DNA of 64,000 nucleotides from Synergistaceae bacterium. Lineage in GTDB: Bacteria; Synergistota; Synergistia; Synergistales; Aminobacteriaceae. A program made the translations under genes and the position numbers. The notes under the pieces are model-generated. The model ran no database searches. It saw nothing but the letters and a program-made list of their open reading frames with translations, and was not told the DNA's origin. Where the stretch lies: the NCBI GenBank assembly GCA_017448795.1, contig JAFSKV010000001.1:1-64000 (forward strand). Reading direction: 5' to 3'. Positions within the stretch are counted from its first letter, which is position 1; every line of letters begins with the position of its first letter. Positions 45,501 to 48,109 of this stretch are shown here, in pieces.

Positions 45501-46978
45501 ACGAGACTGACCGCACGTCGTACCCGTCAAAAGGCTGGTCAAAGTCGACATTCTACAGCGGTAACGTGTTGTCTGAAAATCTGCGTGAGGATTTGGGCGG
45601 TGAAATCCCTCCTTATGTGGGAAGCTCAAGGGCCGGGCAGGTGAGACTGCTGACGCTGATGCTGAGTGAAGATGCCTCGCTGCCGCTGACAGACCGGGCG
45701 ACAAACATAATCCCTTATTCGCGGCGCACAAGTTTTCCAGACACTGACGAGCGCGGGGTATCACGAACTGCCGGCGGTGAAGATATAGCGTTGGATGTTG
45801 GGGCATGTTTCTTTGACGGCACGAGGTACAGCGACAAGAAGACCCCTGTAGCAGCATACACGATTTCGCGTGTTGAGATTTCCGGGATACCCAACAACCT
45901 GCGGCGTGTGGGACAGACAGCGAGCTTGATTGCGAAGGTCTACTACACGAACGGCCGTACAGCTCTCGGCGGGAACGGGGACGGAGAAGAGCCCATAGAA
46001 TGGACGAGCGACAAGCCCAACATAATCCGCATCAACAAGGACACGGGCGACATAGTGGTTCTGAGCTTCACGCCCGGAGAAACTTACGTAACCATAACAG
46101 CGACGACGATACGCACGGATCTGAACGGAGCGCGTATTTCCAGCAGCAAGCCCATCAAAGTAACGGAGTACACGGCGAGCTATCTCAACACGTCGCCTGA
46201 GCTGATGAATTACCTTCAGGGCTACACGGAACAGCTGACGGAGTACGATATATCAGTGAGGCTTTCAGACGCGGACAATTCAGCGGTGAACAGTGCGGGC
46301 TTCCAAGCGGCTTTTGCTGACACATGGAACGCAACGGCATCACAGGTTATGGATTTGACGGCTGCAAGCATAGAGTTTGACACTAGGACGGGCTACACGG
46401 CTTCAGACGGTTACGCGCTTCCATCGGGCAAGGCAGGTGTAAGCCTTACGTTCTCAGGGCTTGGGACTGGCGATATATTCCCGCTGATTTACACGTGGGA
46501 CTTCACGGCCTCTGAGCTTGCCGGGCTTCTGGGCTTTGACATGGCCGGGCGTGAGATAACTTCTTCGCTTGCTGACGAAATATTCACCCGTCTGCGTATA
46601 GATTTCGAGGGTTCCGGCTCATCACGTGCAGTAATCGGCGGCTCAGGGGTGAAGGCTTCTGACGCTATGACTGCCGGGGCGTTATCCCTGACCAAGACAA
46701 GCGGCAGCGGTCTTCACGCAGAACTCACAGCCTACCTCGCCAACGTTACGGCCTCAGGTCTCAATGACGGCCCGCGGCTTGTTGACGGTCTTCTTGTTGT
46801 GCCAGACGGAAGCGGGAATGACGGCGCAATAACCGGCACAATGTGGATGGCAGGGAAAACCTCGTCCCAGTCAGCAGACGGCCAGCCCGGAACAAGCTCA
46901 GGCTCAGGCGGAGGAGGATGCTTAATGTTCCCGGCCATGACGCTTTTAGCCCTTGCAGCTCTCAGGCGCAGGCATTAG
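42548..46978 (+). CDS. Giant secreted right-handed beta-helix protein with Synerg-CTERM signal
   Basis: A 1476-residue surface protein with a signal peptide (RRIFLLTLALLALMAGQSHS). About residues 175-960 form a parallel beta-helix of many short rungs with recurring GGAI, GGAVY, SGNV and FTGN motifs, resembling polymorphic outer membrane or CSLREA-type helices. At about 1100-1190 lies a BIG2-like Ig domain (VEISGIPNNLRRVGQTASL, EWTSDKPNIIRI). A further beta domain is followed by SGSGGGGC, a hydrophobic run and RRRH, the sorting signal. Composition (Gly, Ser, Thr, Asn) is typical of adhesins. Binding partners are unknown. Codon use is like its neighbours. It is followed by a clear terminator. 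Confidence 0.85.
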   Translation: MRRIFLLTLALLALMAGQSHSATTVTALTVNGTDLIPPPSITTPYVPAEYDDEGSETTAETKGVATFAALSGVNYTFETVKGALDFARNPVYYIHNNFDFDSWSDPDGYGAEYYDFEYDDSLQATMKEITVSIEISSLTDTVDLSGYSSAIVTMTFTAASPLTAPYGERHFIAGGTSTVTFSGITFNGSDNGGGVAVSDGTVSFTGCTFTHCDMDSGGGLRVSGGTVSVSGTFTRNTAGSSGGAISVTGGTVSVTGTFSGNVSYSGGAISVTGGSLTVSSSSFTGNEATNGGAIYSSSGLTVGAGVTFNTVSASSPNVAERGGAVYIASGTAAISGSGVSFTENEASYGGAVYVSSGTLNAAGEGMTFSGNVVSEDGGAIWTGAGSRVNLTGSSMAFTGNKSVSGDGGGIYASGTVTLSYAVLTENEAETGRGGAIFMAGGSTVNFSSSASRNRASYGGAVYMANARSATNLTVTGQAGASLTQNSALISGGGIYAEANCSITLETELDMTGNTAEDGNGGAMWLTDESQLPEGTVIFVSNNARKSTTASLTEGNGGGIYVLGSDTSSVIVGPTRLYTFEGNSAQTYGGAVFIRSGDVTFDGYMGSNAITSVNTARIGGGFAGSTAGTIRFNNSTVTNQTVTNGSGGAVWARNVVITSCDFGASGSPNMSQGTGNNHGGGAVYSNGTISLSNATFSYNEAVQGGGAVYADTADVTVRSCYFHDNDAQGGNGGAITLRNYCTTTIASTTFVSNESENLDGGAVYAQGRIEISYCYFNLNQSKRSGGAIYFDQSNAQEPFSSFAIRNSMLTENSTQGGTEGGNGGGIFAAANRVTITSCTFNKNHIDLSGNAGEGGGLYLNTANYQTANNRIENCTFYENTVNDGAAPNSDNTVYSGGGALGVHCEGRTEIVSCTFAGNGSRYKGGAIYLGVEDGTLSVSGTMLVGNTNLGIYDIWSDGNISSGGYNRIGVYGTGSGVTDFYSETRNETDRTSYPSKGWSKSTFYSGNVLSENLREDLGGEIPPYVGSSRAGQVRLLTLMLSEDASLPLTDRATNIIPYSRRTSFPDTDERGVSRTAGGEDIALDVGACFFDGTRYSDKKTPVAAYTISRVEISGIPNNLRRVGQTASLIAKVYYTNGRTALGGNGDGEEPIEWTSDKPNIIRINKDTGDIVVLSFTPGETYVTITATTIRTDLNGARISSSKPIKVTEYTASYLNTSPELMNYLQGYTEQLTEYDISVRLSDADNSAVNSAGFQAAFADTWNATASQVMDLTAASIEFDTRTGYTASDGYALPSGKAGVSLTFSGLGTGDIFPLIYTWDFTASELAGLLGFDMAGREITSSLADEIFTRLRIDFEGSGSSRAVIGGSGVKASDAMTAGALSLTKTSGSGLHAELTAYLANVTASGLNDGPRLVDGLLVVPDGSGNDGAITGTMWMAGKTSSQSADGQPGTSSGSGGGGCLMFPAMTLLALAALRRRH

Positions 46979-46994
46979 GCATAAATCACACGGA

Positions 46995-47027
46995 GGCTTC
47001 CCTGAAAATGGGAGGCCTTTTCTTTTT
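46995..47027 (+). terminator. Terminator after the Synerg-CTERM operon
   Basis: A GGCTTCCC/GGGAGGCC stem (one G-U pair) with a 7-base loop is followed by TTTTCTTTTT. It lies 16 bases after the beta-helix stop. The T tract runs straight into a copy of TTTTGCTGAC (47024-47033). Confidence 0.85.
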
Positions 47028-47035
47028 GCTGACTG

Positions 47036-47063
47036 TTGCAATTTCCGGCCATAAGGTTAAAAT
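47036..47063 (+). promoter_or_regulatory. Candidate promoter for the structured RNA at 47.2 kb
   Basis: TTGCAA at 47036-47041 and TAAAAT at 47058-47063 have a 16-base spacer. A transcript starting near 47070 would include an upstream hairpin region (47071-47160) plus the main structured RNA. A second, weaker -10-like box, TAGATA at 47182-47187, would start transcription just before the closing stem. Confidence 0.45.
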
Positions 47064-47195
47064 TAGTCAACGTGTGGAGGATGACCAACAGCGTAGGCTA
47101 GGGCAAGGGAAGATGACACGACAGCCCGAAGTAAGCATGGTATGCGACCTCCCCCCCACGACACACAAAGGAGCTATAAGCTAGATATCAATACA

Positions 47196-47472
47196 GTGTA
47201 ATAAGGTACTCTAATCCGTCAAAAAAACGATATAAAATCGCAAACAAAGGAGGTAAACTCTGCTACATAGGGTTAGAGGGAGGGAAGTGCAAGCCGACAG
47301 CACTATAAAGACCGAAATTCGATACCAGAAATGGGAGTCGCTACCGTGGGCTACACGGGAAGTCAAGCCTCCGGACTGCCGGGCAAACTCTAGTAGCAGC
47401 AGCAACGCGAACGAGGGCAGGAAGAACGAGGAAAACTCGAAAGGGTGTAGAAAGCACTTTATTACACTTTTT
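47196..47472 (+). ncRNA. Structured non-coding RNA, possibly of the raiA motif class
   Basis: No credible protein frame exists between 46979 and 47491, yet the sequence folds well. An 11-bp closing stem joins 47196-47206 (GTGTAATAAGG) to 47457-47467 (CTTTATTACAC), followed by TTTTT. A 9-bp stem joins 47209-47217 (CTCTAATCC) to 47270-47278 (GGGTTAGAG) around a small CGAT/ATCG hairpin. Further helices are AGTGC/GCACT (47286-47290 with 47300-47304), a long-range CTACAC/GTGTAG pair (47351-47356 with 47445-47450), and CGAG/CTCG (47427-47439). The run of invariant-looking unpaired purines in the middle resembles what I remember of raiA motif RNAs, but I could not compare. The class assignment is tentative, the structure itself is well supported. 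dnaJ starts 20 bases downstream. Confidence 0.62.
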
Positions 47473-47491
47473 ACGTAGCAGAGACAGACAC

Positions 47492-48109
47492 ATGGAGTAC
47501 AAAGACTATTACGGGATACTAGGTGTATCAAGGGGTGCGTCATCAGAAGAAATCAGGCGGGCATACAGGAAGCTGGCGAAGCAGTATCACCCTGACCTGA
47601 ATAAGGCACCCGGAGCAGAGGACAAGTACAAGGAAATCAACGAGGCTTACGAGGTGCTGAAAGATGCCGACAAGCGCGCGAAATATGATGCATTGGGCAT
47701 GAATTGGCATCAAGGCCAGACGTTTACGCCTCCTCCCGGAGGAACGCGTGTTGAATTTGGGGGAGATTTCAGCGATTTCTTCCAGTCATTATTTGGTTTT
47801 GGGGACATATTCGGCACTGTTCATGATGAGAAGGCAAGGGCAGATTATGACCTGACAAAGGATGTTCATGTTCCGGTTTACGCGGCTGTTCTTGGACGCA
47901 AGTTTGATGTTGACACGCCGACCGGGAAAGTTACAGTAACCATGCCTCCCGGAATGCAGGACGGGCAGAAGCTGCGTCTCCGCGGAAAAGGTTATCCCCG
48001 TCCCGGCGGCTCAAACGGTGATATGTATGTGCGTGTGAAAATCGACATCCCCAAGAGTTTAACGCCCCGTCAGCGTGAATTGTGGCAGATGATAGCGCGT
48101 GAGGGTTAA
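47492..48109 (+). CDS. Short DnaJ/CbpA-type co-chaperone lacking the zinc finger
   Basis: A 205-residue protein. Residues 1-70 form a J domain ([13 protein letters not shown] and the HPD motif in YHPDLNK), which stimulates DnaK ATPase. A Gly/Phe-rich part follows (about 75-110), then a single C-terminal substrate-binding beta domain ([35 protein letters not shown]). The Cys-rich zinc region and the second half of a full-length DnaJ are missing, as in CbpA-like short forms. There is no strong ribosome binding site. The structured RNA lies immediately upstream. Confidence 0.88.

Follow-up and report, generated by a model that had tools for sequence, protein, structure and literature searches.

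Nucleases of the IS607 TnpB family use guide RNAs (reRNAs) whose core is the RAGATH-18 RNA (PMC11061315). In the reRNA of ISFba1 (Ren et al. 2024, PMC11061315), this core is accompanied by 5' and 3' flanks, the PK2 pairing is visible by cryo-EM, and the guide consists of the 20 nt directly 3' of the scaffold; AGGAG has been shown biochemically to be the 5' TAM for most of the systems tested. Approximately 36% of RAGATH-18 RNAs are not located beside tnpB (PMC11061315), so that an adjoining tnpB is not a defining feature of a RAGATH-18 guide RNA. Two other groups of systems are relevant here. Group B IStrons combine IS607 with a group I intron, and their RNA is thought to render insertions harmless (PMC4227781). 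In T4 genes 38 and 25, RNA structure brings a distant Shine-Dalgarno sequence to the AUG, leaving an effective spacing of 5 nt in gene 38 and 11 nt in gene 25 (PMC3014915), and in Escherichia coli thrS a hairpin inside the ribosome-binding site is tolerated by ribosomes (PMC3936740).

The locus described here lies in a window of 64,000 nt (the whole stretch of DNA that was analyzed) from a Synergistaceae bacterium; all features are on the forward strand. Positions 47174 to 47481, as delimited by alignment with relatives, form a 308-bp IS607-type element that carries a guide RNA and lacks tnpA and tnpB. It shares with ISFba1 (PMC11061315) the RAGATH-18 core, the 5' and 3' flanks, PK2, the AGGAG TAM, and a guide directly after the right end. 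It differs in being a solo element, with no tnpB directly upstream of the scaffold, and in an extra 5' half (47174 to 47325), which has no counterpart described in that paper and contains an internal Shine-Dalgarno sequence and a right-end complement. The left end CTATAAGCTAGATATCA (47174 to 47190) is nearly identical in a tnpB-bearing element (G009:C9) and a solo element (G009:C8), and the right end ACGTAGCAG (47473 to 47481), which is the scaffold terminus, is found in type B copies with and without tnpB and is followed by host sequence. Alignment of the copies shows that the left end CTATAAGCTAGAT and the right end are common to the window element and the tnpB-bearing elements. The left junction is also as in the window, with AAGGAG followed by CTATAGCTA in G009:C8 and CAGGAG followed by CTATAAGCTAGAT in the tnpB element of G009:C9. 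In BLAST comparisons, the window element is 70 to 77% identical to the 3' halves of tnpB-bearing elements, with an identical right end. Three further copies of this RNA are present in the same genome (on C65, C3, and C53), and related copies with and without tnpB are found in the genus. No serine-recombinase tnpA was found in its own genome. Because of this and of the ends shared with tnpB-bearing elements, the window copy is a non-autonomous guide-RNA element, and the missing tnpA means that it may be immobile now. In some relatives, the coding sequence upstream of tnpB resembles what we take to be the end of an IS607 tnpA. Elements can also be stacked: in L085 (G010:C14), a type A right end is followed directly by the start of a type C tnpB element, giving a tandem pair at one Shine-Dalgarno sequence.

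No Rfam family reached its cut-off anywhere in the window. A permissive scan of positions 46900 to 47600, with matches listed up to E = 10, identified the RAGATH-18 core (RF03064) at 47368 to 47433 with 43.7 bits (E 4e-7), which is 1.2 bits below the curated cut-off of 44.9; the copy on C65, 78% identical to the window RNA, scores 48.7 bits, above the cut-off. The 5'-flank hairpin (47344 to 47358) has a stem with compensatory changes and a loop, GGCUA (47349 to 47353), that pairs with UAGC of the right end (47476 to 47479) as PK2. This loop/right-end pair varies by type: GCUA/UAGC, CGUUA/UAACG, and CGAUG/CAUCG. The 3'-flank hairpin AAAGGGUGU/ACACUUUUU (47440 to 47472; strands 47440 to 47448 and 47464 to 47472) has 98% of its cells paired in 17 relatives, and the T-run is one strand of its stem. 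The helices with support in relatives are thus the 5'-flank hairpin, a GAAA hairpin, the RAGATH core, and the 3' hairpin. It is nearly certain that the window RNA is an IS607 TnpB guide RNA (RAGATH-18, reRNA, or omegaRNA). Its predicted 20-nt guide AGACAGACACATGGAGTACA (47482 to 47501), assigned by analogy with IS607 reRNAs to the first 20 nt past the right end, runs across the dnaJ start codon; with up to 3 mismatches, it occurs in its own genome once, at its own locus, and has no target in trans there. The same genome encodes more RAGATH-18 loci and TnpB genes, on C4, C31, and C32. The TnpB on C32 matches structure 8iaz (named in PMC11061315) with E 2e-110 and retains the DLG/IEDL/DRD RuvC residues; a search of viral contigs with this protein gave no match. 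The scaffolds of five loci (L136, L146, L082, L086, and L089) have short hairpin inserts (CATTAGCGTAGCGGGCCG.. and similar) within the 5'-flank hairpin or close to it, which seem to be a smaller repeat carried along by the element.

A sequence-only reading of this region had reported a complex structured RNA at 47196 to 47472. The fold itself is real and stable (-74.3 kcal/mol versus -62.8 +/- 4.6 kcal/mol for shuffles; z -2.5; 1 of 200 shuffles), and compensatory changes in the alignment of 17 relatives back much of the structure. Several of its parts did not hold up, however. Only the three-member subfamily of the window retains the proposed 11-bp closing helix, which has 67% of cells paired and no covariation in the family and is equaled in 111 of 500 shuffles; its 3' strand belongs to the conserved local hairpin 47440-47448/47464-47472. 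The long-range CTACAC/GTGTAG pairing is 61% paired in relatives, again without covariation, and the final T-run (47468 to 47472) is in relatives a strand of the local hairpin and not a terminator. Both ends of the element were missed, and the helix that closes its core, 47258-47266/47475-47483, extends outside the proposed 3' limit. Nor did that reading recognize that the RNA belongs to a mobile element with tnpB-bearing relatives, or that there is an internal Shine-Dalgarno sequence with a right-end complement.

The element separates the dnaJ gene (DnaJ/CbpA-like, 47492 to 48109; Pfam DnaJ 3e-27, DnaJ_C 2e-18) from its own Shine-Dalgarno sequence. Upstream of the element is a promoter-like match, TTGCAA-16-TAAAAT followed by TTAGTCA (47036 to 47063), which is kept in relatives: their dnaJ orthologues have GTTGCAA..GGTTAAAATTAGTCA or a close form upstream, with a Shine-Dalgarno sequence and the start codon close behind. 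The element is absent from these orthologues, and the window alone has the insertion. Here, the host Shine-Dalgarno sequence AAAGGAG (47167 to 47173) forms the left flank of the insertion and contains the TAM AGGAG (47169 to 47173) at the junction; the dnaJ ATG (47492) lies 10 nt past the right end. The dnaJ promoter is parted from the upstream Synerg-CTERM operon by a strong terminator-like hairpin (46992 to 47020). Between the conserved promoter and the host Shine-Dalgarno sequence are approximately 85 nt of extra leader (47084 to 47166), a single-copy segment with no match in 43 genomes of the genus, possibly the scar of another insertion. The encoded DnaJ has 205 amino acids and seems to stop after the first C-terminal subdomain; the open frames of relatives mostly have about 290 to 300.

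Such placement is common among these elements. Right ends lie 3 to 16 nt before the start codon of an open frame of at least 60 codons in 69 of 85 Synergistaceae cases and in 11 of 14 from Firmicutes, versus approximately 15% at random positions. This preference arises because the TAM resembles a Shine-Dalgarno sequence. At the host starts behind the right ends, the match to a Shine-Dalgarno sequence is not beyond chance (mean 3.34 versus 3.31 at random). Judging from the protein starts, the genes behind right ends presumably include gatB (on C32) and murC (G009:C9). The C32 element (L020, G000:C32:18500-24500) bears tnpB and lies within the gat operon, where it separates gatB from gatA; gatB must be expressed from behind the element.

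The extra 5' half of the window element contains a Shine-Dalgarno sequence, AAAGGAGG (47246 to 47253), that has no start codon of its own; among solo copies, conservation peaks at this sequence in both type B (17 copies) and type A (26 copies). A small open reading frame behind it was considered and rejected for want of a conserved start codon. It is followed by the right-end complement (antiRE) CTCTGCTAC (47258 to 47266), whose core CTGCTAC (47260 to 47266) is complementary to right-end positions 47475 to 47481; the extended helix, with 47475 to 47483, has a predicted energy of -16.2 kcal/mol and, in the window copy, one mismatch (A.C). The Shine-Dalgarno sequence is in the loop of a helix, H1 (47208 to 47217 with 47270 to 47278), that is kept in C65 and G009:C8; in its place, other type B copies have the unrelated complementary pairs GTGTTAC/GTAACAC and CTTGAC/GTCAG. 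Across elements, the gap from the Shine-Dalgarno sequence to the complement is 0 to 8 nt, and both are conservation peaks amid surroundings of low conservation. Solo type B copies have AAGGAGG without a start codon, then CTGCTACGT, the complement of the right end ACGTAGCAG. From these copies we predicted, before checking the other types, that the complement would match other right ends as well. This proved true: elements with the type A right end CTGTAACGG carry AAAGGAGG..CCGTTACAG, those with the type C right end TTTTTTGCATCGG carry AAAGGAGGACGATGCAAAAA, those of Selenomonadaceae with the right end TCAGTAACGG carry AAGGAGG..CCGTTACTGA, and L119, with TTTTGTAACGG, carries CCGTTACAAAA. The complement and the right end covary across four right-end types and two phyla.

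When the best right-end complement was chosen without constraint, a Shine-Dalgarno sequence was found just upstream of it in 44 of 56 solo copies, against a background of 7.9%; the remaining 12 lack the module. Duplex energies average -13 to -15 kcal/mol with a right end of the matching type and -3.5 to -4.8 kcal/mol with those of other types. Positions 5 to 7 of the pairing are paired in all 50 of 50 elements, with several pair types per position. When right ends were permuted across elements, none of 1,000 permutations was as good as the observed pairing. Within one type, 57 of 1,000 were, and covariation there is not significant because the copies are close relatives; the statistical weight therefore lies between types. 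RNAalifold, run on separate type B and type A alignments, chose the antiRE helix unprompted as the closing helix. A sigma-70-like promoter lies downstream of the module in the majority of type A and C solo copies, and the guide RNA proper would accordingly be without the complement. The window copy, unlike most, has no clear internal -35 box and probably depends on the dnaJ promoter; this and the A.C mismatch mean that it may be a decaying copy.

The module is not confined to solo elements. A scan of the left ends of type A and B tnpB elements was negative and had suggested such a restriction, but a scan of whole elements located the module within tnpB. In the tnpB-bearing elements, the Shine-Dalgarno sequence and the complement lie inside the gene, mostly 550 to 620 nt upstream of the right end and in differing codon phases. 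Examples include a Firmicutes element (AATAAGGAGGGAAACCGTTTCGTCAAAAC versus the right end GTTTTGGCAACGG) and, as the strongest case, the C32 gatA-gatB element (AGAAAGGAGGTAACTGCTGCTAGGAAAA versus TTTTTTAGTAGCAG; -17.7 kcal/mol), where this is the best site in the element. An element's own right end beats those of other types in 32 of 36 tnpB-bearing elements (-12.5 versus -6.1 kcal/mol when swapped). Equally low energies are often reached when right ends are shuffled and whole elements are searched, and the tnpB-bearing case therefore rests on the swap control and on the adjacency of the Shine-Dalgarno sequence. In type A, an AAG/AAA difference at a third codon position tracks C/T in the right end (Fisher p 0.005, hand-tallied and uncorrected for kinship). 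In an independent set from viral contigs, for which a strict RAGATH pattern missed most loci and was replaced, 8 of 13 have the module where it is expected.

The element limits, the RAGATH-18 scaffold, the insertion between Shine-Dalgarno sequence and start codon, the covarying pairing, and the conserved internal Shine-Dalgarno sequence can all be read directly from the DNA. The explanation that best joins them, and one that we hold to be reasonably probable, is that this guide RNA of a non-autonomous IS607-type element before dnaJ has two mutually exclusive uses for its right end: PK2 and the antiRE helix exclude each other because they use the same nucleotides. In the guide mode, the right-end nucleotides GUAGCAG would form PK2 with the 5'-flank hairpin, and a TnpB encoded elsewhere in the genome would act in trans, binding the scaffold and taking the next 20 nt as the guide. 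It would then cut element-free sites (the AGGAG TAM followed by AGACAG..), favoring retention of the element. In the mRNA mode, the dnaJ transcript would read through the element from the upstream promoter, and the right end would pair with 47258 to 47266, closing the element core as a single folded domain with the Shine-Dalgarno sequence (47246 to 47253) on its 5' side and the dnaJ AUG on its 3' side. The antiRE/right-end pairing would thereby restore translation, and the insertion would do little harm because the element's own Shine-Dalgarno sequence is placed beside the dnaJ start codon. That the module serves as a ribosome site seems somewhat better than an even bet, judged from comparative data. 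The joining of Shine-Dalgarno sequence and AUG by the intervening structure is supported by structural comparison. The path between them across the helix is 8 to 20 nt (median 13 to 16), which counts against a split site in that it exceeds the usual optimum and the 5 nt of gene 38, although it is near the 11 nt of gene 25. As in T4 genes 38 and 25 (PMC3014915) and thrS (PMC3936740), structure before the AUG would shorten the effective distance to the Shine-Dalgarno sequence or an upstream segment. In those cases, however, the structured segment accounts for little of a leader that belongs to the gene itself, whereas in the window it is a whole mobile element with its own Shine-Dalgarno sequence.

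A less likely explanation, to which we would still give some weight, is that the window carries a tnpB-less IS607 guide-RNA relic or MITE in which the complement competes with PK2 and keeps the full-length mRNA from serving as guide RNA or being processed into it, the Shine-Dalgarno-like purines being incidental. The nucleotides shared by the complement and PK2 fit this, as do the promoters downstream of the module in most type A and C solo copies. Incidental purines would hardly recur beside the complement at the frequency seen in solo copies (44 of 56 versus 7.9%), however, or in type C elements and, in differing codon phases, in tnpB genes. It is improbable that the complementarity acts at the DNA level, as an inverted repeat to which the IS607 transposase binds, and forms no RNA helix. 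The ends of IS607 elements do have repeated motifs bound by TnpA (PMC6188088), and the GTGTAA/TTACAC motifs behind the 11-bp helix discussed above are plausibly of this kind, but the module lies well within the element (tnpB-bearing elements of types A and B have it in mid-tnpB and not at the left end) and several of its pairs are G-U.

A self-splicing, IStron-like element excised from the mRNA would answer the same need, an insertion made harmless, and group B IStrons (PMC4227781) belong to this transposon family, but such an element is very improbable here: the Rfam scan of 46900 to 47600 listed neither group I nor group II introns among its matches up to E 10, and the C32 tnpB element begins at most approximately 30 nt from the gatA stop codon, which leaves no room for a 5' intron half. 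The window element differs from IStrons in having no intron and in its proposed remedy, a relocated Shine-Dalgarno sequence instead of splicing. Finally, the raiA motif or an unknown free-standing structured RNA, the two classes offered by the sequence-only reading, can be given almost no credence: the fold is stable and the RNA is intergenic, structured, and similar in size to raiA, but raiA (RF03072, the accession offered there) is absent among Rfam matches up to E = 10, the conserved core differs, the 3' half is RAGATH-18, a known IS607 TnpB guide-RNA scaffold (PMC11061315), and copies lie upstream of unrelated genes with mobile-element ends. What stands of that interpretation is a complex structured RNA other than RNase P, tmRNA, 6S, or SRP RNA, none of which has an Rfam match.

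The reading of the window element as both guide RNA and leader may extend further. IS607/RAGATH-18 elements generally could be specialists of the gap between Shine-Dalgarno sequence and start codon, with a replacement Shine-Dalgarno sequence, near the left end in solo copies and overlapping the tnpB coding sequence in others, that is presented by right-end pairing, and with the right end switching between leader and guide; we see this generalization as just as apt to fail as to hold. A search limited to the open-licence PMC literature found no paper that ties a TnpB/IS607 insertion or scaffold end to Shine-Dalgarno function. As far as checked, then, the guide RNA is of a known kind and the replacement ribosome site is new. 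For the engineering of compact TnpB nucleases, it would imply that a segment of the tnpB coding sequence may double as an RNA element, pairing with the end of the scaffold. If true, the mechanism would explain how TnpB elements come to lie between the Shine-Dalgarno sequence and the start of core genes (dnaJ, gatB on C32, and murC in G009) with no evident loss of the gene. The replacement Shine-Dalgarno sequence would be a non-splicing counterpart of IStrons, one shared right end would predict a switch between mRNA and guide RNA, and the AGGAG TAM of the IS607/RAGATH-18 family would have an evolutionary reason.
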